Of a DNA stretch of 33,151 nt, positions 2,932-20,493 are shown piece after piece. The notes beneath the pieces were generated by a model, which was given only the letters and a program-made list of their open reading frames with translations, searched no databases and was not told the origin of the DNA. The position numbers and the translations under genes were made by a program. The stretch comes from Luteolibacter sp. (lineage in GTDB: Bacteria > Verrucomicrobiota > Verrucomicrobiia > Verrucomicrobiales > Akkermansiaceae): contig JAUYNL010000038.1 of assembly GCA_030696085.1 (NCBI GenBank), positions 1 through 33,151 on the forward strand. Reading direction: 5' to 3'. The first letter of the stretch is position 1. Each line of letters begins with the position of its first letter.

Positions 2932-2989
2932 GACTAAATCATAGCACAGCATGTTCCGAATGCGCGGTTATTTAAGAAACTGTGCTTCG

Positions 2990-3550
2990 TCAGCAGGATT
3001 TGTGTGAACAAGGAGGCTTAGGAAGCTTTCCAAGCGAATGATAGAGAACGAGTTTGAGTATTTCGGAAGAGCGATGCCCATAACCATGCGCAAGCGAAAC
3101 ACGGGCTTTATTGTTCAATCCCTCGACCACGCCACTGTTATATTTTCGTTTCGCACGGAAGTAGTTGAGCAGAAGTTCCTCATGAGCGCGCAGCATTTTG
3201 GCGACCTTCTTCATTGGCTCGAGGCGCGAGCGCATAGCGCGGGTGGTCCATGCCTTCAGATATGCCGCGGCCCAGGTCGGGCTTCGGTAGAGCCAGAAGC
3301 GCCGGAAGCTTTCCTTGAGCTCCCAGGCACGCGATGTGGCTCCGAGCGAAGCGAGAACCGCGTTGAGCTTGGCCCTGGCCTTGCCGCGAACCTTGGTGGA
3401 GCGTTTCAACAACAAAAATCGACCGCCCTTGGCGCGGGCCCGCTGCTCCTTGGAGCGCAGCCGACCTTGCTAGCCACGGCGCACTTGATCAACCGCCTCA
3501 TTGAGGTGCTTGGCGATGTGGAATGGATCGTGCGCGGCAAGGATTATTTT
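2990..3550 (-). pseudogene. ISL3-family transposase remnant (C-terminal part with internal stop)
   Basis: On the minus strand, HDPFHIAKHLNEAVDQVRR (about 3475-3530) is followed by an in-frame TAG at 3470-3472. In the same frame it continues with a basic stretch, then FRRFWLYRSPTWAAAYLKAW, AKRKYNSGVVEGLNNKARV, and ends HSLGKLPKPPCSHKSC at the TGA at 2990. These are hallmarks of the ISL3 (IS204/IS1001/IS1096/IS1165) DDE transposase C-terminal half, including the conserved G-V-x-E-G-x-N-N-K. About half of the usual 400-residue protein is missing, and the internal stop breaks the rest, so it cannot make an active transposase. Its truncated 5' edge is joined in frame to the 3' end of the broken lnt gene. 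Confidence 0.8.
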
Positions 3551-4420
3551 CCGACATACTAGACGCCCCCCCCGGCGGCGTGGAAGGAGTAGGACCATCC
3601 AGCAAGTGGCCACCACGCCGAGCACGCACCATGGCGTGAGCCAGCCGAAGCGGGTGTAGAACGTGAGCTTCGTCTCTGGACGAATCGTGCCAACGAGCGG
3701 GCCTTGTTTCAGTGCGTCCAGCCGCTGGTGAACGTGGCCGTGCGGATCGATGACTTGCGAGATACCTGATGACGCGCATACAAACATCCACCGGCCGTTT
3801 TCCGCAGCGCGAATGCGGAAAAGATCCGCGTGCTGGTCGTGCTGGCGGGCGGTCCACGGTTCCGAGTCCATAATGGGAACGATGAACATTTCCGCGCCAG
3901 AGGCGGTCATCCGGCGAACGACTCCTTCGTAGTCGCAATCGAAACAAACCGGCGTGCCGATTTTTCCGTGGCGTGTCCCGACTGGCAGCGCGGCGTTGCC
4001 GGGCGAGCCATCATCGAAGAAATGCACGGTATGCACCTTGGTGTGCTCGCCGCGGACTCCGCCGGGATCGAGGGTGAGGGCGATGTTACGCCAGGCGTCG
4101 CCATCTCCGGGGCGGGACTGAGTGCCGAGGGTGAGGGTGATGTCGCGCTCGCGACAGAGGTTTTGCACGAGTTCCCAATCGCGCCGGTTAGAGCGGAGGT
4201 CGTAGGGCACGGCATATTCCGGCCAGACGACATGCCGGACACCGTCGGGCAGTTGTTTGGTTTCGGATAGAAAGACATCGAGCGACACGTTTTCAAATTG
4301 CAGTCCGCCGACTTTCGCCGCGGACGAATCCCCGGCCGCAGGCTGCGAGACCGGCCGGAACGCGACGATGCACAGGACCAGCCCTAGCAGCATGGCCAGC
4401 GCGGGTTTCCACATCCGCAT
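3470..4420 (-). CDS. lnt: C-terminal part of apolipoprotein N-acyltransferase (Lnt-like nitrilase domain), truncated and fused to an ISL3 tail
   Basis: A 316-residue frame on the minus strand. Residues 7-22 form one membrane helix, residues 35-255 a carbon-nitrogen hydrolase domain, and about 259-280 a final helix, the arrangement of the C-terminal part of Lnt. Lnt adds the third acyl chain to lipoproteins. The catalytic triad is readable as Glu68 (WPEYA), Lys128 (HTKVH) and Cys159 (GTPVCFDC), and the conserved RAAENGR and SSGISQVIDPHG also fit. The multi-helix N-terminal half needed by true Lnt (about 500 residues) is missing: only its first 33 residues survive just upstream, out of frame. 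The last 25 or so residues derive from an ISL3 transposase fragment. I consider it a decaying lnt gene, although the hydrolase core is intact and could still be made as a short membrane-anchored protein. The longer open frame running upstream to 4945 only overlaps rsmD antisense. Confidence 0.75.
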   Translation of the reverse strand: MRMWKPALAMLLGLVLCIVAFRPVSQPAAGDSSAAKVGGLQFENVSLDVFLSETKQLPDGVRHVVWPEYAVPYDLRSNRRDWELVQNLCRERDITLTLGTQSRPGDGDAWRNIALTLDPGGVRGEHTKVHTVHFFDDGSPGNAALPVGTRHGKIGTPVCFDCDYEGVVRRMTASGAEMFIVPIMDSEPWTARQHDQHADLFRIRAAENGRWMFVCASSGISQVIDPHGHVHQRLDALKQGPLVGTIRPETKLTFYTRFGWLTPWCVLGVVATCWMVLLLPRRRGGRLVCRKIILAAHDPFHIAKHLNEAVDQVRRG

Positions 4421-4521
4421 CACAGCCAGCCCCAGCCCAGCGGCGGATAAGCGAGCGAGTAAAGCATGCCTGAAACAAGCGCGACACCGCAGCGCGCGGG
4501 AAAGGACTGCGTGACCTGCAT
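4420..4521 (-). pseudogene. lnt: N-terminal remnant of apolipoprotein N-acyltransferase
   Basis: An ATG at 4521 opens a 33-codon frame ending in TGA at 4420-4422. Its product includes ALVSGMLYSLAYPPLGWGWL, the typical first membrane helix of Lnt (small-residue helix followed by PP-x-G-x-W). Normally this would continue through several more helices; here it stops and the next recognisable Lnt sequence, the helix before the hydrolase domain, begins at once in another frame. The stop and the downstream ATG overlap as TGATG, so the second frame could be translated by coupling. An internal deletion with a frame change is the simplest explanation. The upstream side faces rsmD across about 100 bases, suggesting a divergent promoter region. 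Confidence 0.65.
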
Positions 4522-4622
4522 ATGACCTGGATGGTAGGCATTGAATCAAACGCATGCAAGCCACCCGGTAGATATCCATTTTCGTGATTTTCATTCCGGC
4601 ATCCGCAGCTATGGCTTGGCGC

Positions 4623-5174
4623 ATGAGAATCATTGCCGGAAAAGCCGGACGCATCGCCATCAAGGTCCCCGCAGCCGTCGCCCGGCCGACGACGGATTTC
4701 GTGCGCCAGGCGATCTTTTCGATTCTCGGCGAACGCGTGGAAAACGCGCGCGTGCTGGATCTGTTCGCCGGCTCGGGAGCGATCGGACTGGAGGCGCTGA
4801 GCCGTGGCGCGGCGTCCTGCGTGTTTGTCGATGAACACCGACAGGCCTGCGCGGTGATCGCGGAGAATCTCAGCAAGGCCCGCCTCGATGGCGGCCTCGC
4901 GGTGAAAGCCGAGGCCATTTCCTTCCTCAAACGCGACGCCGCCACCTACGACCTCATTTTCGCCGATCCGCCATATTGGAAACACTACGGCGACAAGGAT
5001 CACGTCGGAGATCTGTTGAAAAGCGGCCTGCTCGCCCCGCTGCTGGCACCGGACGGCTGGCTGGTCGCGGAGGTTTCCGCAAACCAAGCCTCGCCCCCGG
5101 CGGAGGATTTCACCCTCAGCGACCGCCGCGAATACGGTGGCAGCGCCATCCTCTTCTACGTCCCGCGCGCTTGA
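4623..5174 (+). CDS. rsmD: 16S rRNA (guanine966-N2)-methyltransferase RsmD
   Basis: A 183-residue methyltransferase that methylates G966 of 16S rRNA in the small ribosomal subunit. It starts MRIIAGKAGR and has the RsmD-type RPTTDFVRQAIFSIL segment near residue 21, the SAM-binding loop LDLFAGSGAIGLEALSRGA at 45-63, and the catalytic DPPY at 115-118. Length matches the family. The frame is open 13 codons further upstream, but MRIIAG is the standard N-terminus, so the ATG at 4623 is taken. It is divergent from the broken lnt gene and followed by a compact hairpin, then leuA 45 bases downstream. Confidence 0.92.
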   Translation: MRIIAGKAGRIAIKVPAAVARPTTDFVRQAIFSILGERVENARVLDLFAGSGAIGLEALSRGAASCVFVDEHRQACAVIAENLSKARLDGGLAVKAEAISFLKRDAATYDLIFADPPYWKHYGDKDHVGDLLKSGLLAPLLAPDGWLVAEVSANQASPPAEDFTLSDRREYGGSAILFYVPRA

Positions 5175-5219: not shown

Positions 5220-6905
5220 ATGAATCCGTCCTCACTCCACAAGTATCGCCCCTTCCCGCCCGTCCGCTTGCCGGACCGCACCTGGCCGGACCGGGTGCTC
5301 GACCACGCGCCCGAGTGGTGCTCGGTCGATCTGCGCGATGGAAACCAGGCGCTGCCCCAGCCGATGTCCGTGGAGGAGAAACTGGAGTTTTTCGATGTGC
5401 TCTGCCGCGTCGGCTTCAAGCAGATCGAAGTCGGCTTCCCCTCGGCCGCGGACACGGAGTTCAACTTCTGCCGCCGCCTCATCGAGGAAAATCGCATCCC
5501 GGATGACGTGACGATCCAGGTGCTGGTGCAGACGCGCGAGCACCTGATCCGCCGCAGTTTCGAAGCGATCGACGGAGCGAAACGCGCCATCGTCCATATC
5601 TACAACTCCACCTCGCCGCTGCAGCGCCGCGTCACCTTCGGCGATGCCTCGCGCGAATCGATCCGCGAGTTCGCCCTGGAGGGCGCGCGGCTGGTGAAAC
5701 AACTCGTCCCCACCGTGCCGCGCACCGAGATCGTGCTGCAATACTCGCCCGAATCCTTCTCGGACACCGAGCTGGAATTCGCGCTCGAATGCTGCAATGG
5801 CGTGATTGATATCTGGCAGCCCACGCCGGAGAACAAGATGATCATCAACCTGCCGGACACCGTGCAGTGGACCACGCCCAACATCCACGCCGACATGATC
5901 GAGTGGATGTGCCGCCACTTGAAAAACCGCGGGGCCCTCCTCGTTTCCCTGCACACCCACAACGACCGCGGCACCGGCGTGGCCGCCACCGAGCTCGGCC
6001 TCATGGCCGGCGCCGACCGCGTGGAAGGCACGCTTTTCGGCAATGGCGAACGCACCGGAAATCTCGACATCGTCACCGTCGCGCTCAACCTCAACAGCCA
6101 CGGCGTGGCCACCGGCCTGGACTTCTCCGACCTGCCCGCCATCCGCGCCGTCTATGAACGCGTCACCCGCCTCAACGTGCCGGAGCGCCAGCCCTACGCC
6201 GGGGAGCTCGTCTTCACCGCGTTTTCCGGCTCCCACCAGGATGCCATCAAAAAAGGCCTCGACCGCCGCGAAAAGGAACTCAAGGCCCACCCCGAAACCG
6301 TCTGGGGCGTGCCCTACCTCACCATCGATCCGCAGGATGTCGGGCGCAGCTACGAGGCCATCATCCGCATCAACTCGCAGTCTGGAAAAGGCGGCGTCGC
6401 CTACGTGCTGGACCGCGAGCATGGCTTCGACCTGCCGAAAACCATGCACCCGCAGGTCGGAAAGCGCATCTACGATCTGGCCGATGAACACGGTCGCGAA
6501 CTCACCGCCGATGAGATCCGCGACGCGTTTTTCCACGAGTTCGTCAATCTCGCCAGCCCGCTGGATGTGATCGATTACGAACTCATCCACCAGGTGGGCG
6601 AGCGCGGCCGGGTCAAGTGCCAGGCGAGCATCCTCAACCATGGCGAGGAGCAGCACATCGAGGGCTTTGGAAACGGGCCGATCAACGCCTTCGTCCACGC
6701 GCTGGAAGGCATCGGCCTGAAAGATTTCAAAGTCACCGATTACCGCTCGCACGCCGTGCGCGGCGGATCGGATGCGAGCGCGGCGGCCTACGTGCAAATC
6801 CAGCACGACGACGGTCGCCTGCTGTGGGGTGCCGGCGTCGATCCCTCCATCGAAATGGCCGGCCTCAAGGCGCTGGTCACCGCGTGGAATCTGCTGCGAC
6901 CGTGA
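5220..6905 (+). CDS. leuA: 2-isopropylmalate synthase (long LeuA form)
   Basis: A 561-residue enzyme of leucine synthesis that condenses acetyl-CoA with 2-oxoisovalerate. The N-terminus NPSSLHKYRPFPPVRLPDRTW is typical of the long, yeast/actinobacterial-type LeuA. The HMGL-like TIM barrel shows SVDLRDGNQALPQPM near residue 35 (metal-binding Asp), the metal-ligand HTHNDRGTGVA near residue 242, and FGNGERTGNLDIV near residue 275. The C-terminal LeuA dimer domain, the allosteric leucine site, lies at about 430-560 with HAVRGGSDASAAAYVQI. Full length and intact. No leucine attenuator or T-box was recognised upstream, and leuB/leuCD are not in the window. Confidence 0.96.
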   Translation: MNPSSLHKYRPFPPVRLPDRTWPDRVLDHAPEWCSVDLRDGNQALPQPMSVEEKLEFFDVLCRVGFKQIEVGFPSAADTEFNFCRRLIEENRIPDDVTIQVLVQTREHLIRRSFEAIDGAKRAIVHIYNSTSPLQRRVTFGDASRESIREFALEGARLVKQLVPTVPRTEIVLQYSPESFSDTELEFALECCNGVIDIWQPTPENKMIINLPDTVQWTTPNIHADMIEWMCRHLKNRGALLVSLHTHNDRGTGVAATELGLMAGADRVEGTLFGNGERTGNLDIVTVALNLNSHGVATGLDFSDLPAIRAVYERVTRLNVPERQPYAGELVFTAFSGSHQDAIKKGLDRREKELKAHPETVWGVPYLTIDPQDVGRSYEAIIRINSQSGKGGVAYVLDREHGFDLPKTMHPQVGKRIYDLADEHGRELTADEIRDAFFHEFVNLASPLDVIDYELIHQVGERGRVKCQASILNHGEEQHIEGFGNGPINAFVHALEGIGLKDFKVTDYRSHAVRGGSDASAAAYVQIQHDDGRLLWGAGVDPSIEMAGLKALVTAWNLLRP

Positions 6906-9374: not shown

Positions 9375-9530
9375 CGCGGCCATCATGCATGGCGGCAGTC
9401 CCCCCGCAAGGTTGGTGCTTTGTTCCGCGTGGCTTCCTCTTGCCGGGGCTGCGTGAAAAGAGTCGTCGCACCGTCATCGACGGATTCAAATCACGGCGCT
9501 TGGCTTCCATGAATCGTCCGACTTCCCGTC

Positions 9531-9557
9531 TGGACAAAACAAGGACGCCGCCTAGTT
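9531..9557 (+). promoter_or_regulatory. Candidate sigma70-like promoter of the moxR operon
   Basis: TGGACA at 9531-9536 and TAGTTT at 9552-9557 are 15 bases apart, about 20 bases before the moxR start at 9578. The layout resembles the stronger TTGACA/TAGAGT pair before rpmH in this window. The short spacer makes this tentative. Confidence 0.35.
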
Positions 9558-9577
9558 TCGTTTGCACCAAGCATACC

Positions 9578-10600
<1,023 letters not shown>

Positions 10601-10660
10601 TTGCATTCCGCTTTCAAAATAGGATTCGCCCGCCTTACTTTCTCGCCTTACTTTCACAGC

Positions 10661-10942
10661 ATGACCGTTACATTGACCAGTAAAGGACAAATCACCATCC
10701 CGCTCTCACTCAGAAAGCGCCTCAACCTGAAGGCCGGGGATCAATTGGAGTTTGACGAAACCGCTCCCATCCTCACCGCGAGACGAGTTGTTCACCGCAG
10801 CGAATGGGAAAAAACCCTCAACGAATGGCAGGTCTCGGCACAGGCCGCACTCCGGGGCCACCCTTGGGAAAATCAGTCTTCCACCACCATACTGGATGAC
10901 CTGCGCAGTGGCCCCATGGAAACTCCGCCCCCTCCGCCATGA
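10661..10942 (+). CDS. AbrB/MazE-type antitoxin
   Basis: A 93-residue protein with a SpoVT-AbrB (swapped-hairpin) DNA-binding domain: MTVTLTSKGQITIPLSLRKR, then LNLKAGDQLEFDE. The C-terminal half is hydrophilic and would be the toxin-binding tail. Such antitoxins bind their own promoter and neutralise a partner, here the PIN-domain frame that starts at 10939 and overlaps this stop codon as ATGA. The ATG at 10661 is taken over an in-frame upstream ATG at 10601, because the domain begins exactly there. The pair lies 60 bases after moxR, inside the MoxR operon. Confidence 0.85.
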   Translation: MTVTLTSKGQITIPLSLRKRLNLKAGDQLEFDETAPILTARRVVHRSEWEKTLNEWQVSAQAALRGHPWENQSSTTILDDLRSGPMETPPPPP

Positions 10943-12267
10943 TCACCGCCCTCGATTCCTCGGTTCTCTGGGCCATCCTCAAAAAGGAAGCCGGCCACGA
11001 AGAATGGCTTGCCGCACTCCTCCGCGCCGCATCGAACGGCCCCTTAATCATCAGTCCCATCGCTTTTGCCGAACTCGCCCCTTCCGCCACGGATGCGGCC
11101 ACTCTCAACGAATTTCTCGGCCAATTGGCCATTTCCTACAATCCGATCACCCCTGCCGCCGCCCACCTCGCCGGCCTGACCTTCAAACGCTACCGCCAGG
11201 CCGGCGGACCGCGCATGCACTTGGTTCCCGATTTCGTCATCGCGGCCCACGCACAGGTGCGGGCCAACCGGCTTGCCGCAATCGACCGCGGTTATCTCCG
11301 CCAGTGGTTTCCCGAATTGCTCCTGCCCGCGCATAGCCGTCCTGAGCCACTCTATCAGAATCTATCCATCCGGATGAGCCACTCCTTCATCGACAACGAT
11401 CTGTTATCCCGCCTCGGCTCGCTTCCCATCGAGTCGCGAGCGCCGATGTTGGGCAATGTGGCCGGCAAACACCGCTCGCCCCATCGCGGATCATCCGTCG
11501 AGTTCGCGGAATACCGGAAATATGTGCCTGGCGACGACACCCGCCGCCTCGATTGGAAGGCTTTCGCCCGCTCGGACCGTTTTTACATCAAGGAATTCGA
11601 GGCCGACACCAACCTGCGCGCCTACTTCGTCGTCGATGCCTCCGGTTCGATGAAATTCGCCGGAACCGGCGAGACTAAAATCCAATACGCCCGCCGCATC
11701 GCCGCGTCCCTCGCCTATCTGTTAGTCAATCAGGGCGACGCCGCCGGTCTCTCGATCTGCACCGACAAACTCCACCTCGAAGTCCCGCCCAGCCGCCGCG
11801 CCGCCCACCTCGAACGCTTCTTCTCCACTCTCGGAAAACTCGAGCCCTCCGGAGAAACCGGCCTGATTCCCGCGCTTCACACCATTGCGGAAAAAATCGG
11901 CCAACGCGCCTTCGTCGTCATTCTATCCGATCTTTTCACCGATTCCGCGGCCCTCGGCGAGGCCCTCCAGCACCTGCGCTACCGCAAACACGACATCTCC
12001 GTCTTCCATCTGATGGATTCGCAGGAAATCGGCTTCGAGTTCGACCGCCCGCACCGCTTCGTCGATATGGAGGACGGCACCGCGCTGGTCGCCGAGCCCA
12101 ACCTCATCGCCGACGAATACAAAACCGCGCTGCGCGAATTCCTCACCAAAGTCCGCGCCAAATGCCACGCCGCCGCCGCCGACTACCAACTCGTCACCAC
12201 CGACTCCCCGCTCGAGCCCCTGCTGCGTGATTTCCTGACCGCGAGATTGCCGAAATCGAAACACTAA
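10939..12267 (+). CDS. PIN-domain toxin fused in frame to a DUF58 (vWA-type) MoxR-operon protein
   Basis: One uninterrupted 442-codon frame holds two proteins normally separate. Residues 1-130 form a complete VapC-like PIN ribonuclease domain: Asp6 (ALDSSVL), Glu45 (FAEL), Asp98 (LVPDFVIAAHA) and Asp116 (AIDRGYL) are the four acidic residues, ending RQWFPELLLP as in typical VapC toxins. Residues 146-442, from MSHSF at 11374, form a complete DUF58 protein with GNVAGKHRSPHRGSSVEFAE, the YVPGDDTRRLDW motif and the vWA metal site DASGS at 233-237. The 16-codon linker has no stop, so translation from 10939 must give a fusion. DUF58 could also start independently at 11374, although no strong ribosome binding site is seen. 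The PIN part overlaps the MazE-like antitoxin; the DUF58 part belongs to the MoxR system. Confidence 0.85.
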   Translation: MITALDSSVLWAILKKEAGHEEWLAALLRAASNGPLIISPIAFAELAPSATDAATLNEFLGQLAISYNPITPAAAHLAGLTFKRYRQAGGPRMHLVPDFVIAAHAQVRANRLAAIDRGYLRQWFPELLLPAHSRPEPLYQNLSIRMSHSFIDNDLLSRLGSLPIESRAPMLGNVAGKHRSPHRGSSVEFAEYRKYVPGDDTRRLDWKAFARSDRFYIKEFEADTNLRAYFVVDASGSMKFAGTGETKIQYARRIAASLAYLLVNQGDAAGLSICTDKLHLEVPPSRRAAHLERFFSTLGKLEPSGETGLIPALHTIAEKIGQRAFVVILSDLFTDSAALGEALQHLRYRKHDISVFHLMDSQEIGFEFDRPHRFVDMEDGTALVAEPNLIADEYKTALREFLTKVRAKCHAAAADYQLVTTDSPLEPLLRDFLTARLPKSKH

Positions 12268-12275
12268 CCTTGCCA

Positions 12276-12305
12276 TTTCATCCATTTCGTCCATTTTGGA
12301 TGAAA
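12276..12305. promoter_or_regulatory. Inverted repeat ahead of the Phd/ParE pair, possible operator
   Basis: TTTCATCC (12276-12283) and GGATGAAA (12298-12305) form a perfect 8-bp inverted repeat around 14 bases. The left side also shows short direct repeats CATTTCATC/CATTTCGTC. It ends 8 bases before the antitoxin start, where an autoregulatory operator of a Phd-type antitoxin would be expected. It could equally be the DUF58 terminator or an insertion scar. Confidence 0.4.
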
Positions 12306-12313
12306 GCAAAGCC

Positions 12314-12583
12314 ATGAAAACCGTCACCGCCAACACCGCGAAACAGCAGCTCGGCCAAGTCCTCGACAGCGCCCGCACCGCCCCCGTCTCCATCACCAAA
12401 CACGGCCGCCCCGCCTTCGTCATCACCACCAAAGAAGACTACGACTCCCTCACCAAAATCAAATTCGAGCAATTCAAACGCGAAGTCCGACTCGGCTTCG
12501 ACCAACTCGACCGAGGCGAAATCTCCACCATGACCATGGAGGAAATCGCCGCGGAGGTGATGGCTGAGTTCAAACAAAGCTGA
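12314..12583 (+). CDS. Phd/YefM-family antitoxin
   Basis: An 89-residue antitoxin: the N-terminal Phd/YefM fold is clear (MKTVTANTAKQQLGQVLDSA, then PVSITKHGRPAFVITTKEDY), followed by an acidic helical tail for toxin binding. It would repress its own promoter and neutralise the ParE-type toxin that starts five bases after its stop. An ATG 18 bases upstream (12296) overlaps the inverted repeat and is less likely as start. The gene sits between the DUF58 and BatA genes. Confidence 0.88.
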   Translation: MKTVTANTAKQQLGQVLDSARTAPVSITKHGRPAFVITTKEDYDSLTKIKFEQFKREVRLGFDQLDRGEISTMTMEEIAAEVMAEFKQS

Positions 12584-12587
12584 TTCC

Positions 12588-12902
12588 GTGGGCGGTTACC
12601 GGCTATCAAAATTCGCAGAGCGGGATCTTGCCGACATCCTCCGCTACACCATCCAAACTTGGGGAATGAAACAAGGAGCCGCTTACTTCCAAATTCTCAC
12701 CGCCGCCAGAACCTGCATCGTGAACAACCCCTTTCTTCCCGGCAGTAGAATCAGAGACGACCTGGCCAATGGGTGCCGTGCATTCCGGGCCGGCAAACAC
12801 TTTGTTTTTTATCGAGTGAGTGGAGATCGCGTGGAAATCGCCCGCATCCTTCATGAGTCCATGGACTTTTCCCGCCACGTCGGCGAGGAAGCCTTCGATT
12901 AA
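12588..12902 (+). CDS. RelE/ParE-superfamily toxin
   Basis: A 104-residue protein with the ParE pattern: YRLSKFAERDLADILRYTI at the N-terminus, a WGMKQGAAYFQIL helix, a central FLPGSRIRDDL segment, then KHFVFYRVSGDRVEIARILHE, the conserved core strands, and an HESMDF end. ParE toxins poison gyrase, whereas RelE toxins cut mRNA; the sequence looks more ParE-like. The start is a GTG at 12588, just after the antitoxin stop, consistent with translational coupling. The system appears intact. Confidence 0.85.
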   Translation: MGGYRLSKFAERDLADILRYTIQTWGMKQGAAYFQILTAARTCIVNNPFLPGSRIRDDLANGCRAFRAGKHFVFYRVSGDRVEIARILHESMDFSRHVGEEAFD

Positions 12903-12921
12903 GCACCAAATCCGAGAATCA

Positions 12922-13674
12922 ATGTCGAAAAAAAACACAAGCTTCACGGATAGCGACAAAGCGAAGATCTACGTTCGAGACCGTGCCACCTGCTGCTTCT
13001 CCGGAGCGAATCTTTGGCTTCTTGACGCACCTTTGCGCGTCGGTTGGCAGCCAGATTGGGCCGACCACCGAAAACCCGTCTCGCGAGGAGGCAAAGCTGA
13101 CTGGGAAGACAACGGCGCATGCGCATCCCACACATACAACATGAAAAAGCGGAACAATTCCGCAGACACGACTTATCTATTCGAAAGCGGACACCCTACG
13201 GCGCTATACTACCGCCTTTTCGGCTCCCCGCCTGCTCACGTCACCGAACGTCTGCAACGCCTATCAAATCTTCACGAATCCGACTGGTATTTTAATCGGG
13301 CGATCACATGGATATTTGAAGCCTTGGACTTCATTTGGTGGCAACCCGATTACACGCGAACAGATGAACATTGGTTCGATGCCGCTTTCAAGAAGCTCTC
13401 CAAATATAGAAAAATCCTGCTTTCAATCCGCAATTGTGACAGCTCGGATTCAATGAAAGAATGGGTTCTCCAACTCTCTTTGGGATACAGCAAAAACTCT
13501 GACGCATGGTGGGAATATTTTCACCCAGAGGACCACGATCTCAAAACACCCGCTGATATGGATTCACACCGCAGAAAAGCATATCGAAGAGCTCTTAAAA
13601 TCAAAGACCAGCTAGATTCGGAAACATTTGCGTGTATCCAGACCGACCACCAAATCCGTTTCCCTTCCAACTAG
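12922..13674 (+). CDS. HNH-nuclease-like protein, probably horizontally acquired
   Basis: A 250-residue protein with an N-terminal HNH-like region: KIYVRDRATCCFSGANL near 15-31, then ADHRKPVSRGGKADWEDNGA with Asp48-His49 and Asn64, then CASHTYNMKKRNN with His70 and Asn73. This order fits the HNH fold (D/H, N, then N or H). Only one Cys pair is visible, so a structural zinc site is doubtful. Residues 90-250 are rich in Trp, Tyr and charged residues, and I do not recognise them. Codon use and base composition are noticeably more AT-rich than the neighbours: 50 of 120 bases at 13381-13500 are G or C. That suggests recent transfer. It begins 20 bases after the ParE-type toxin and ends 42 bases before the BatA-like gene. 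A role in DNA defence is possible but unproven. Confidence 0.7.
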   Translation: MSKKNTSFTDSDKAKIYVRDRATCCFSGANLWLLDAPLRVGWQPDWADHRKPVSRGGKADWEDNGACASHTYNMKKRNNSADTTYLFESGHPTALYYRLFGSPPAHVTERLQRLSNLHESDWYFNRAITWIFEALDFIWWQPDYTRTDEHWFDAAFKKLSKYRKILLSIRNCDSSDSMKEWVLQLSLGYSKNSDAWWEYFHPEDHDLKTPADMDSHRRKAYRRALKIKDQLDSETFACIQTDHQIRFPSN

Positions 13675-13716
13675 TCTCCGCGCCTCACGCCCCTACCTCC
13701 GCTTCTCCGCGTTTCG

Positions 13717-15696
13717 ATGCTCTTCCTCTCTCCAGCCCTGCTTTGGTTTGTTGCCGCGGCCGCAGTCCCCATCGCGATCCACCTGATCAACCGCCGACGC
13801 CACAAGACGATCCAGTGGGCGGCAATGCAGTTCCTGCTCAAGGCTTCCCGTGAATCCCGCGGAAAGAAAAAACTCCGCCACATCCTCATTCTAACATGCC
13901 GCGCCCTCGGAGTCGCCGCGCTCGCCCTCGCCGCCGCCCGTCCCATCGTTTCCGGTCTCATGGGCTGGGGCGGTGGTTCCATCGACACGGTGGTCCTTCT
14001 GCTGGACCGTTCCGCCTCGATGGAAATCAAACCCGGCGACGGACTCGAATCCCGCCGCGAGATCGTCATCAAGAAAGTCCGCGACGCCATGGCCGCCCTC
14101 GGCGCCGCGCGGCTGGTGCTCATCGACAGCGCCTCGAACAAACCCCAGGAAATCCCCTCTCCCGATATTCTCGCCGAGCTTTCGTCAACGGCAGGCACGG
14201 ACACATCCGCGGATTTCCCCACCCTGCTCGCACGCGCCGCCGAATTTCTGGCAGAAACACCCGGCCGCTCCGAAGTCTGGCTGGCCTCCGACCTGCAATC
14301 CTCCAACTGGCGCCCCGATGACGAACGCTGGTCCGCCGCCCGCGCCAGCCTCGCCGCGCTTCCGCAAAAGCCCGCGATCCGCGTGTTGTCGCTTACCGGA
14401 CCCACGGCCGCCAACGCCTCCGTTAGACTGCTCGGTTCGCGGCGCTCCGGCGACGAACTGCTGATCGATCTCGAAGTCCTCCGCTCCGGCGAAGCGCGCG
14501 GCACCACCTCCATCCCGCTCACCACCCACCTCAACGGCACCCGCACCACCGAGAACCTCACGCTTCCCGGCCAATCGCTGCGTTTCCAGAAACGCATCAC
14601 TCTGCCCTCCGGCACCGACACCGGCCACGGCTGGCTTTCCATCCCCGCCGATGGCAATCCCCGCGACAACGCGGCCTTTTTCGCCTACGGCCCGGCACGC
14701 CCCTCCAAGTCTCTGATCGTCGCCCCGACCGGCGAGAGTGCCGACTACCTCGCCCTCGCCGCAGCTCCGCCCGGATTCGGGAACTTTGAAACCCGGCGCG
14801 TGGATCCCGCGGAGGCCGCCCCCGCCATCGCTCCCGATCTCGCCACCATCCTGTGGGCCGCGCCGCTTCCCTCCGGGCCCGCCGCAGATGCCCTCCAGGG
14901 ATTTCTCAACTCCGGCGGCCATGTTCTTTTCTTTCCACCCGGCACCTCGTCCACCACCGCTTTTAACGAACTCCTCTGGGCCGATCCCACCGAAGCACCC
15001 GCCGGAAAATTCTTCATCCTCGCCGACTGGAACCGCAACGACGGCCCGCTGCGTGATGGCATCGACGGCACCCCCATCGCCGCGAACCGCCTGAAAGCCA
15101 TCCGCCGCCAGATTCCCCAGGGCGATGCCACGCCGCTCGCCAGTTGGGAGGATGGCGAGCCCGCCATCACCCGCCGCATCTTCGATCACGGCACCGCATG
15201 GTTCATCGGCTCCATCCCGGATTACTCCTGGTCCAATCTCGGCGATGCCGATGTCCTCCTGCCCGTCGTCCAGCGCATCATTGCCGCCGGCAGCGACCGT
15301 TTCGATGCCTCCCACCTCGCCAATCTCGGCTCCCCCACCGATCGTCTGCTGCCTGGGGAAACCCGCCGCCGCATCGATGACTACGGCAACCCGGACCCCG
15401 CCAACACGCAATATGAGGCCGGCATCCACCTCATCGGTGTTCGCGTTCTCGCCCTCAACCGTCCGCCCCAGGAGGACACTCCGGAAATCCTCACCCGCGA
15501 GGCACTCGATTCCGTGCTCGATGGCACCAAATACACCCTGCTCGATCAAGCCGGCCAAGCGGACGACTCCACCCTCTCCCGCGACGTCTGGCGCGCCTTC
15601 CTTGTTGCAGTGCTGTTCTTCCTGCTCTCCGAAGCCCTGCTCTGCCTGCCGAAGAAAAGCCAACCCGAAGCTCTTCCCGCGAAGATGGCTGCTTAA
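13717..15696 (+). CDS. BatA-like vWA-domain membrane protein of the MoxR operon
   Basis: A 659-residue protein. The N-terminus (FLSPALLWFVAAAAVPIAIHL, then INRRRHKTIQW) is the BatA/aerotolerance-type signature: a membrane helix followed by a basic R-R-R segment. A second helix at about 57-77 follows. The vWA domain starts near residue 90 with the metal site DRSAS at 97-101. After it comes a long extracytoplasmic region, and a last membrane helix AFLVAVLFFLLSEALLCLP lies near the C-terminus. Such proteins are thought to be membrane partners of MoxR ATPases. It is separated from DUF58 by the Phd/ParE and HNH genes and followed 41 bases later by a second vWA protein. Confidence 0.86.
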   Translation: MLFLSPALLWFVAAAAVPIAIHLINRRRHKTIQWAAMQFLLKASRESRGKKKLRHILILTCRALGVAALALAAARPIVSGLMGWGGGSIDTVVLLLDRSASMEIKPGDGLESRREIVIKKVRDAMAALGAARLVLIDSASNKPQEIPSPDILAELSSTAGTDTSADFPTLLARAAEFLAETPGRSEVWLASDLQSSNWRPDDERWSAARASLAALPQKPAIRVLSLTGPTAANASVRLLGSRRSGDELLIDLEVLRSGEARGTTSIPLTTHLNGTRTTENLTLPGQSLRFQKRITLPSGTDTGHGWLSIPADGNPRDNAAFFAYGPARPSKSLIVAPTGESADYLALAAAPPGFGNFETRRVDPAEAAPAIAPDLATILWAAPLPSGPAADALQGFLNSGGHVLFFPPGTSSTTAFNELLWADPTEAPAGKFFILADWNRNDGPLRDGIDGTPIAANRLKAIRRQIPQGDATPLASWEDGEPAITRRIFDHGTAWFIGSIPDYSWSNLGDADVLLPVVQRIIAAGSDRFDASHLANLGSPTDRLLPGETRRRIDDYGNPDPANTQYEAGIHLIGVRVLALNRPPQEDTPEILTREALDSVLDGTKYTLLDQAGQADDSTLSRDVWRAFLVAVLFFLLSEALLCLPKKSQPEALPAKMAA

Positions 15697-18296: not shown

Positions 18297-18322
18297 TATT
18301 TGATAAAAGTATTTGATAAAAG
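18297..18322 (+). repeat. Two perfect tandem copies of a 13-base unit
   Basis: TATTTGATAAAAG occurs at 18297-18309 and again at 18310-18322. The second copy runs into the palindromic RAYT-type element that starts at 18314. It could reflect slippage or duplication at the element's edge, or contribute an AT-rich promoter for the RAYT gene. Confidence 0.8.
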
Positions 18323-18341
18323 GAATGTCCCTTTATCGAAA
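18314..18341 (+). repeat. REP-like palindrome upstream of the RAYT gene
   Basis: The 23 bases from 18315 to 18337 form an imperfect palindrome (arms GATAAAAGGAA and GTCCCTTTATC), followed by GAAA. A copy differing at 3 of 28 positions lies inverted at 32977-33004. Repeats with a GGGAC-x-GTCCC core are typical of sites linked to REP-associated tyrosine transposases, and a RAYT gene begins 40 bases downstream. Confidence 0.7.
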
Positions 18342-18380
18342 TATCTTGCAAGCGCGGTTACGGTGTCATATAGAGCTGCC

Positions 18381-19496
18381 ATGAGACGTGCGCGTTGGAT
18401 TTTGCGCCCTGCACCGGAGACGGCGCGGCCGGTGATCTATCACTGCATTTCAAGGGTGGTGGACAGACGGTTCGTCTTCCAAGCCGATGAAAAGGAAAAA
18501 CTCCGGACTTTCATGCGGATGTATGAGAGTTTTACGGGCTGTCGGATTCTTTCCTACTGCCTGATGTGCAATCACCTGCATCTCCTGCTTGAGGTTACAC
18601 CGATGCCCGTAGGCGGCTTGTCCGACGAGGCGCTGCTTGAGCGTTTAAAGGCGCTATACAATGAGGCGTTTGTGGCAGATGTGGCGAGGGAGCTCACGGA
18701 GGCGCGGAAACAAGTGGCGACCGGACTTGGCGAGGCGGCGGTGCTGGTCGGGAGGATTCACGAGCGTTTCACTTACCGGATGCACGATTTGAGCGAGTTC
18801 ATGAAGGGTTTCATGCAGCGCTACACGCAGTGGCACAATCGAACCCATGAGCGCTGCGGGCATCTGTGGGAGGATCGATTCAAGAGCGTGATCGTGGAGG
18901 ATGGCGTGGCGGCGAAAACGATAGCGGCCTACATCGACCTGAATCCGGTGCGGGCGGGGATGGTGACGGCTCCAGAAGATTACCGATGGAGCAGTTATGG
19001 CGAAGCGATCGGCGGCGGAGCGAGGGGGGAAGGCGGGAAGGCGCGGGCGGGACTGGTGAGGGCATTGCGCTGCCACAAGGGGGCGGCGGTGGATGTGGCG
19101 CTTTGGAAGGGCGATGTGGCGCTGGAGTATCGGCGCGTCCTGCTGGCCGGTGTGGGTGAAAAGACGGAGCAGATGGTCTCACGAAGCGGAGCTGCGGAGA
19201 AAACAGGCAAACGCAAAAGCATGAACGCGGATGAAATTCCAACGAAACAGCATGTCTTGCGAGAAGCCGGGGAGAAGAAAATGGGCGAGATCCCGTTCGG
19301 GCGGATGCTGCGATGCCGGGTGAGGTATTTTTCCGATGGTGTGGTGATCGGTAGCAGGCAGTTTGTGGATCAGATGTTTGAGAGCGCTCGTGATCGATTC
19401 GGTCCAAGGCGCCGGAACGGGGCCAGGGCGATGCGCGGTGATGCAAGCGCGGCTGCGGGGATGTTGTGGAGTCTGCGGGATTTACGAAAGAAATAG
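18381..19496 (+). CDS. REP-associated tyrosine transposase (RAYT, IS200-like Y1 transposase)
   Basis: A 371-residue protein related to IS200 transposases. RAYTs process REP palindromes through a single-strand mechanism. The histidine pair HLH is at 65-67 (CLMCNHLHLLLEV), the catalytic Tyr148 is in MQRYTQWHNRTHERCGHLWE, followed by DRFKSV and the conserved AAYIDLNPVRAGMV. A C-terminal extension of about 150 residues holds RVRYFSDGVVIGSRQFVDQM and FGPRRRNGAR, which I recall in a RAYT subgroup from Verrucomicrobia and related phyla and which may bind DNA. The ATG at 18381 is preferred over 18300, because the upstream part overlaps the palindrome and tandem repeat. All catalytic residues appear intact. 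It ends one base before queA. Confidence 0.88.
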   Translation: MRRARWILRPAPETARPVIYHCISRVVDRRFVFQADEKEKLRTFMRMYESFTGCRILSYCLMCNHLHLLLEVTPMPVGGLSDEALLERLKALYNEAFVADVARELTEARKQVATGLGEAAVLVGRIHERFTYRMHDLSEFMKGFMQRYTQWHNRTHERCGHLWEDRFKSVIVEDGVAAKTIAAYIDLNPVRAGMVTAPEDYRWSSYGEAIGGGARGEGGKARAGLVRALRCHKGAAVDVALWKGDVALEYRRVLLAGVGEKTEQMVSRSGAAEKTGKRKSMNADEIPTKQHVLREAGEKKMGEIPFGRMLRCRVRYFSDGVVIGSRQFVDQMFESARDRFGPRRRNGARAMRGDASAAAGMLWSLRDLRKK

Positions 19497-19497
19497 G

Positions 19498-20493
19498 ATG
19501 TTGAGAACAAGGGATTTCGAATACCACTTGCCGGATGAGTTGATCGCGGCCAGACCCCTCGCGAAGCGCGCGGACTCACGCATGCTGGTGGTTCATCGTG
19601 GCAGCGGGCAAATCGAGCACCGGATGTTCTGCGAGTTTACGGAGTTTCTGAAATCGGATGATTTGCTGGTGCTCAACAACACGAAAGTGATTCCGGCGCG
19701 GGTGTTTTCCGAAGACGGCAGCATTGAGTTGCTGTGTCTCGACCGCATTTCGCCACTGGAGTGGCGATGTCTCGTCCGGCCCGGCAAGCGCATGAAGCCC
19801 GGACGCACCGTGAGGGTAGGCGGGACTGCCGGAACCGTCACGCAGGTGTTTGAAAATGGAGACCGCCTGATTCGCTGGGAGCGCGAACTGGATCTGCACG
19901 CGCATGGTCACCTGGCACTGCCCCACTACATGGGACGGGATGACGAGGCGGCAGATCGCGAGCGATATCAGACGGTGTTCGCCCGCGAGGAGGGGGCGAT
20001 TGCCGCGCCGACCGCCGGACTTCATTTCACACTGGAGATGTTGGAGGAAGTGGCACACGCCTTTCTAACACTCCACGTTGGCGTCGGCACCTTCCGGCCG
20101 GTGAAGGCGGAGCTGCTTTCCGCGCATCTGATGCACTCGGAAAAATTCGCGCTCAGCGCGGAAACCGCCCGCCGGGTGAACGCCGCAGGCCGTGTGGTGG
20201 CGGTGGGCACCACGGTAACAAGGGTGCTGGAGTTCCTAGGGCTGATGGATGTGGCGGGTGGCAGGCGTTTGGATGAGATGGATCATGCTGGGGAGACGGA
20301 CATTTTCATTCATCCGCCGTATGATTTCCGGGTGGTCGATGTCTTGTTGACGAATTTCCATCTGCCGCAAAGCACGTTGCTCATGCTGGTGAGCGCGTTT
20401 GCGGGCCGGGAGCTGGTGTTGGAGGCCTATCGACAAGCGGTGGCCGAGCGTTACCGGTTTTATAGTTATGGCGACTGCATGCTGCTCGTTTAG
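19498..20493 (+). CDS. queA: tRNA preQ1(34) S-adenosylmethionine ribosyltransferase-isomerase QueA
   Basis: A 331-residue enzyme of queuosine synthesis, converting preQ1 at tRNA position 34 to epoxyqueuosine using the ribosyl part of SAM. Family marks are FEYHLPDELIAARPLAKRADSRML at the start (in parts), LLVLNNTKVIPARVF, the EEGAIAAPTAGLHFT motif, LHVGVGTFRPVK and the terminal NFHLPQSTLLMLVSAFAGRE. Length is typical. The start MLRTRDFEYHLP at 19498 lies one base after the RAYT stop, so queA has no separate leader and may be read from the same transcript. It converges with polA. Confidence 0.95.
   Translation: MLRTRDFEYHLPDELIAARPLAKRADSRMLVVHRGSGQIEHRMFCEFTEFLKSDDLLVLNNTKVIPARVFSEDGSIELLCLDRISPLEWRCLVRPGKRMKPGRTVRVGGTAGTVTQVFENGDRLIRWERELDLHAHGHLALPHYMGRDDEAADRERYQTVFAREEGAIAAPTAGLHFTLEMLEEVAHAFLTLHVGVGTFRPVKAELLSAHLMHSEKFALSAETARRVNAAGRVVAVGTTVTRVLEFLGLMDVAGGRRLDEMDHAGETDIFIHPPYDFRVVDVLLTNFHLPQSTLLMLVSAFAGRELVLEAYRQAVAERYRFYSYGDCMLLV

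Follow-up and report, generated by a model that had tools for sequence, protein, structure and literature searches.

A split lnt-like locus in Luteolibacter sp. is very probably the product of recent, ordinary decay of a second Lnt-like gene that the cell could probably spare. The intact gene encodes an LNT_N membrane domain, a domain of the nitrilase type and a final helix. Comparison with relatives shows that one deletion joined the first helix, at its end, out of frame to the one preceding the hydrolase domain, and the alignment shows that TGATG arose where a stop formed by chance overlaps a Met codon long present inside the gene. A rearrangement beside the 3' end would have brought in a truncated ISL3 remnant; the anatomy of this border is seen directly and the order of events is presumed. 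ORF2, the longer of the resulting frames, would yield no useful protein. A canonical, presumably functional, full-length lnt is kept elsewhere in the genome, and the split gene need therefore not be required for lipoprotein N-acylation. Decay is favored by this canonical lnt, by varied lesions across the genus, by a broken copy in the nearest sampled species as well, and by an ISL3 remnant that is truncated and carries a stop. Against plain old decay, the hydrolase part looks intact and its model folds well, as would be expected after a recent lesion but also of a domain still in use.

Anatomy of the split locus

The window analyzed was the whole stretch of 33,151 nt from contig JAUYNL010000038.1, and the locus lies on its minus strand. 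ORF1 (4521..4420, 33 aa) is the N-terminal membrane helix of an Lnt-like paralogue and corresponds, by alignment, to residues 1–31 of the intact copy L009. Its TGA stop (4422–4420) and the ATG of ORF2 (4420–4418) overlap as TGATG; a sequence-only reading had described a first helix of 33 codons ending in TGATG with the next frame opening there, and the coordinates bore this out. ORF2 (4420..3470, 317 aa) contains in its frame a CN_hydrolase domain (PF00795, E 1.4e-15) flanked by two helices, and LNT_N (PF20154) had no match in the window ORFs at E 0.001. The features of the locus and its neighbors were as follows.

2990..3532, minus strand: ISL3 transposase remnant, 3' part only (PF01610 and NF033550 matches)
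3559..3573, minus strand: border between paralogue and ISL3, with a G8 tract at 3566–3573, then TAG at 3561–3559 in another frame
3566..4420, minus strand: paralogue part of ORF2, with helix, nitrilase domain and last helix (domain match, alignment, model)
3946–3944, minus strand: codon of Cys159
4039–4037, minus strand: codon of Lys128
4219–4217, minus strand: codon of Glu68
4418..4424, minus strand: deletion junction, net 406 bp absent relative to the closest intact copy (comparison with L038)
4420..4521, minus strand: ORF1, first helix, with matches of 44–70% identity in 10 of 15 relative loci, both intact and broken ones
4584..5174, plus strand: rsmD (16S rRNA G966 methyltransferase), divergent neighbor (TIGR00095, 127.4 bits, cut-off 117.5)
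5220..6905, plus strand: leuA (2-isopropylmalate synthase; TIGR00970, 724.7 bits, cut-off 697.4)

Glu68, Lys128 and Cys159 of ORF2 were invariant in a 24-sequence alignment, in agreement with the earlier claim of an intact triad in the second frame. The window copy has both the Glu-Lys-Cys triad and the CN_hydrolase domain by which canonical Lnt is recognized.

The spacing between the blocks corresponding to ORF1 and ORF2 was 408 bp in the closest intact copy (L038) and 2 bp in the window. A net 406 bp was thus lost, which shifted the frame and removed most of LNT_N, and the middle membrane helices are gone, as had been read from the letters. The 16 aligned intact copies from the genus carry about 135 extra membrane-domain codons between the two parts, and of the 151 positions of L009 that align to LNT_N (residues 15–165) about 17 remain in the window copy. 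Intact copies such as L009 have an internal Met codon at the place of the ORF2 ATG; in L009 it lies 136 codons beyond the part equivalent to ORF1. On this alignment the TGA of TGATG is simply an out-of-frame reading across an inherited internal Met codon. No repeats that would explain the deletion were found at the deletion point, although identity over a few bases would escape such a search, the lost sequence itself being gone. In E. coli Lnt, TMs 3–5 form the substrate cavity and the G145 region is essential, according to the excerpted text of PMC5500890; going by domain alignment, the deleted part should include the counterparts of both. A disabling lesion of the kind that marks a pseudogene is present in the form of the 406-bp out-of-frame deletion, which presumably inactivates the gene.

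At the 3' border, the window copy departs from the paralogue family about 21 residues past the GWxxPW motif, at the run of eight G (3566–3573); in the 18 intact relatives the distance from this motif to the C-terminus is 22–41 residues. Beyond the G run, one frame hits the TAG at 3561–3559, and the annotated frame continues into ISL3 codons, so that the last ~30 codons of ORF2 belong to the ISL3 remnant, with the PF01610 match starting at 3532. The claim that the 3' end was replaced by ISL3 hardly holds: the tail of ORF2 consists of ISL3 codons, but the paralogue's own C-terminus is nearly complete, the Lnt-like sequence reaching the end of the last helix. Removal of the 3' part of the hydrolase by ISL3 was rejected, the domain and last helix being complete. 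The remnant covers PF01610 profile positions 81–238 of 240 with one in-frame TAG (3472–3470), and 2990–3415 matches NF033550 positions 246–368 of 370. It resembles ISL3 family transposases (PF01610, NF033550) in its C-terminal part but lacks the N-terminal part and carries one stop, and the complete transposase of a working ISL3 element was therefore not found here. A second ISL3 copy, sought in the genome to fix the ends of the element, amounted to a 42-bp match and one other remnant. The latter (L056, G000:C17:1513-1725) is likewise a decayed ISL3 transposase remnant, with one TAA inside.

Elsewhere in the window, an ORF with a Y1_Tnp (IS200-like transposase) domain at 18300–19496 lies beside a queuosine-synthesis gene (19363–20493). 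The stretch 9389–15696 encodes a MoxR-type ATPase, DUF58/VWA and BatA-type proteins in succession, which we take to be an ordinary Bat-like cluster.

The paralogue and canonical Lnt

On profile scores and alignment, the split gene is a divergent Lnt-like paralogue and not the cell's canonical lnt. Against TIGR00546 (cut-off 132.9 bits), the window copy scored 79.3 bits, and three intact paralogues scored 96.8–127.8 bits, all under the cut-off. A full-length canonical lnt encoding 609 aa was found on another contig (G000:C21:10707-12074), with 227.7 bits in a search that gave the window copy 69.8 bits, and with 226.5 bits when scored beside the intact paralogues. The second lnt that the sequence-only reading predicted is thus present, and the possibility that the split gene is the only lnt of the genome was rejected. 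That reading's naming of the gene as lnt stood insofar as the product is Lnt-like with the nitrilase triad, and fell short in that it is a separate paralogue (79.3 bits at best, below 132.9).

The paralogue shares 25% identity with the genome's own Lnt. The two are alike in the Glu-Lys-Cys triad and, for the three intact relatives tested (L009, L012 and L025), all of which matched LNT_N and CN_hydrolase, in domain layout, which is that of canonical Lnt (TIGR00546; structures 5n6h, 5vrg, 6nwr and others). They differ in that the window copy lacks most of LNT_N and the paralogues have CFD at the nucleophile, lack the FGE loop and fall below the NCBI cut-off. E. coli Lnt has C-Y-E and this genome's Lnt C-F-E at the nucleophile; in the alignment the paralogues show HFFDDG and CFDCD, or close variants, where the genome's own Lnt has FGE and CFE. 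Neither the Glu343-type residue of the FGE loop nor the Glu389 beside the Cys was found in the aligned paralogue; both E343 and E389 are essential in E. coli Lnt according to the excerpted text of PMC5500890. Asp137 could serve instead. By the NCBI threshold the paralogue would not be filed as Lnt, and any lipoprotein N-acyltransferase activity that it may have is putative.

Lnt chains were the best matches in a profile search of the PDB. A 286-residue stretch, nearly the family part of ORF2, was modeled by AlphaFold2 with the 24-sequence alignment. The model showed a complete nitrilase with an N-terminal helix (4–20) and a C-terminal helix (254–277), with a mean pLDDT of 91.3 and a pTM of 0.86, and Lnt structures and soluble nitrilases led its Foldseek matches in the PDB.

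Distribution, conservation and breakage of the paralogue

The paralogue was matched in at least 67 of 260 genomes of the taxonomic family, window genome included, and these genomes fall into 7 of the 16 genera. The count is a minimum, as at most six candidates were scored per genome and the remnants in G013, G056 and G064 were missed at that level. Named genomes yielded 48 loci when scanned, and 38 of these carry labels that point to Verrucomicrobia (among them Akkermansia, Akkermansiaceae, Verrucomicrobiaceae, Prosthecobacter and Rubritalea). The remaining 10 were labeled Sumerlaeota (45% identity), Lentisphaeria (43%), Armatimonadota (two loci, 32–34%), Gamma- and Deltaproteobacteria and Woesearchaeota (25–30%), or "bacterium" only (45% and 23%). 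The family is marked by CFDxD or CFDGD at the nucleophile and an HxVxFxxDG-like motif after the Lys (L009, L011–L021, L024–L029 and loci from L087 on). In literature joining "Verrucomicrobi" and "apolipoprotein N-acyltransferase", titles and abstract openings mentioned no such paralogue.

Among the 73 genomes of the genus, 18 held an intact copy in a single open frame, 10 a broken copy or remnant and one a copy over two contigs (G054); none was found in the remaining 44 at the thresholds used. Full-length homologues of the kind against which a pseudogene is called therefore occur in 18 of 73 genus genomes. These intact copies are 42–69% identical to ORF2; 16 are 454–474 aa long from the chosen start, and the other two, for which no Met was chosen, have open frames of 469 and 489 aa. 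Five close intact pairs gave dN/dS of 0.12–0.18, indicating purifying selection on the intact paralogue, and the value between intact G003 and frameshifted G004 was 0.23. Two loci outside the window genome deserve mention in their own right. L163 (G240:C5:18500-22237) holds two tandem paralogue copies, the second running off the contig end, and in another genus the copy L160 (G172:C3:157000-163500, ~2980–3100) is frame-split just past the membrane domain at an eight-G run, which could be slippage, phase variation or sequencing error.

The broken or remnant copies (window genome G000, G004, G013, G023, G028, G029, G031, G056, G064 and G071) carry different lesions. G071 has an internal deletion that also removed the catalytic Glu, G031 and G004 have frameshifts (the single one in G004 could be a sequencing error), G029 and G028 retain C-terminal pieces, G023 an N-terminal piece, and G013, G056 and G064 small remnants. 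By RsmD, the nearest of 30 other sampled genus genomes was G071 (87%), whose copy is broken by a different deletion; in a hydrolase-region tree, in which many forks were unresolved, the window and G071 copies did not group. Comparison of the locus with relatives, which the sequence-only reading had named as a check, showed no second instance of the same two-frame short form among the matches listed from the 260 family genomes, judged by match coordinates and by reading the broken loci. Two neighboring genes are common to the G056 remnant and the intact G030 copy, and one to the G029, G004 and G003 loci, and some copies therefore decayed in place. When 57 loci, in which some genomes occur twice, were compared with the window, no neighbor recurred in more than 5 of them, and the window contains no match to the ORFs that lie upstream of rsmD at 19 relative loci, so that synteny gave no history for this site.

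Canonical lnt scored over the cut-off in 66 of the 73 genomes: 63 copies in one open frame, two split over frames (G015 and G032) and one cut by a contig end (G041). These states were read from the match table alone, and 12 of the 63 open copies match only from profile position 53–60 on. The paralogue is broken more often than canonical lnt (10 broken to 18 intact vs. 2 to 63; Fisher p 7e-5, or 2e-4 if the partial canonical gene of G055 is counted as broken, with shared ancestry uncorrected). Genomes with an intact copy had a median size of 4.9 Mb vs. 3.2 Mb for those without a copy (p 0.003) and 3.7 Mb for those with a broken one (p 0.012), these being draft sizes confounded by completeness. 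G043, G050, G053 and G061 (88–96% complete) had neither canonical lnt over the cut-off nor a clear paralogue copy, through either missing contigs or true absence of Lnt. In G065 and G068 (79% and 66% complete) the paralogue is intact and no canonical lnt scored over the cut-off; the incomplete state of these genomes may explain this, or the paralogue may be of some importance to the cell, and because of these two genomes the paralogue can be called dispensable only with probability.

The hydrolase region of the window copy shows little wear. Over 248 columns, 12 other close copies agree at 82 positions, of which the window copy keeps 81; the same test on each of those 12 found 0–9 of 81–90 positions changed. 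There is no stop within the 286 codons of its hydrolase part, and its branch in the hydrolase-region tree is 0.16 vs. a median end branch of 0.34. The closest copies are ~69–72% identical in protein, with a dS of ~1.3 that is too large for dating the lesion by dN/dS. Selection on the domain had been proposed earlier as a means of telling decay from use; no relaxation was seen. The lesion looks recent, since what remains of the hydrolase is conserved to the same degree as its counterpart in intact copies. Either decay has barely begun, or the domain remains in use, or the deletion is an artefact.

Decay weighed against other readings

The last of these options, that the organism has an intact paralogue and that a misjoin in the draft produced the deletion or the ISL3 joint, we consider unlikely. 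The draft is fragmented into 110 contigs, the locus adjoins a mobile-element remnant and the unworn hydrolase part would be expected, yet the joint sits 4.4 kb inside its contig and the deletion point has no repeat. No second paralogue copy was found in the assembly, and the ISL3 stretch is matched there by only 42 bp and one other remnant, which leaves no long repeat that could have collapsed. Other genomes of the genus, though likewise drafts, have lesions of their own in the paralogue. Reversible switching of the paralogue by homopolymer tracts is hardly credible here. It would draw on the G8 tract at the 3' border and on the frame break at the eight-G run in G172, but slippage cannot reverse a 406-bp deletion, 13 of the 18 intact copies have no run of at least six G/C or at least seven A/T, and each of the remaining five has a single such run, made up of six G or C or of seven T.

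Functional remodeling would have ORF1 and ORF2 coupled through TGATG, with ORF2 a short nitrilase anchored by two helices. The overlap itself, a nitrilase fold predicted to be complete, triad and both helices included, and the conserved hydrolase sequence are what such a gene would show. Against it, the ATG was inherited as a Met codon from inside the intact gene, the C-terminal frame enters ISL3 codons, the membrane part expected to hold the substrate cavity is gone, and the short form appears in no other match listed, the nearest sampled species (G071) being broken differently. A scan found no promoter-like site where 0.5 would be expected by chance, which says little. We therefore regard remodeling as very unlikely, and as no likelier a new, used protein (a two-helix short nitrilase, coupled stop to start and freed from the lipid-facing membrane domain, whose ancestor was itself no lipoprotein acyltransferase). 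Between the decay and the coupled two-frame gene that the sequence-only reading had offered, decay is the better supported; the coupled gene, its form recurring in no other listed match, gained no positive support.

Similar cases, alike in description if not necessarily in kinship, are on record. According to the excerpted text of PMC3850990, the second Lnt homologue of M. tuberculosis is split into Rv2262c/Rv2261c by a 2-bp insertion; in M. bovis BCG the homologue is unsplit (BCG_2279c) and did not replace working Lnt for the four lipoproteins tested. In that account, as here, a second Lnt homologue lies in two ORFs with a working Lnt elsewhere (in our genome an lnt gene is present and presumably works). 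There the triad is divided over two ORFs and its Cys is Ser, whereas here the 406-bp deletion keeps the triad together. Lnt2 of Streptomyces scabies, described in the same excerpts, is also a second Lnt homologue, with a subsidiary role, but its gene is functional. Given the Rv2262c/Rv2261c precedent as reported there, a broken second Lnt-like gene is already a known kind of thing. With a broken copy or no copy of the paralogue in many related genomes, the locus itself most likely represents ordinary decay and no novel type of gene. The family of intact paralogues offers the better, if modest, lead: it is conserved, has a changed active-site surround, is under purifying selection and is patchily present.
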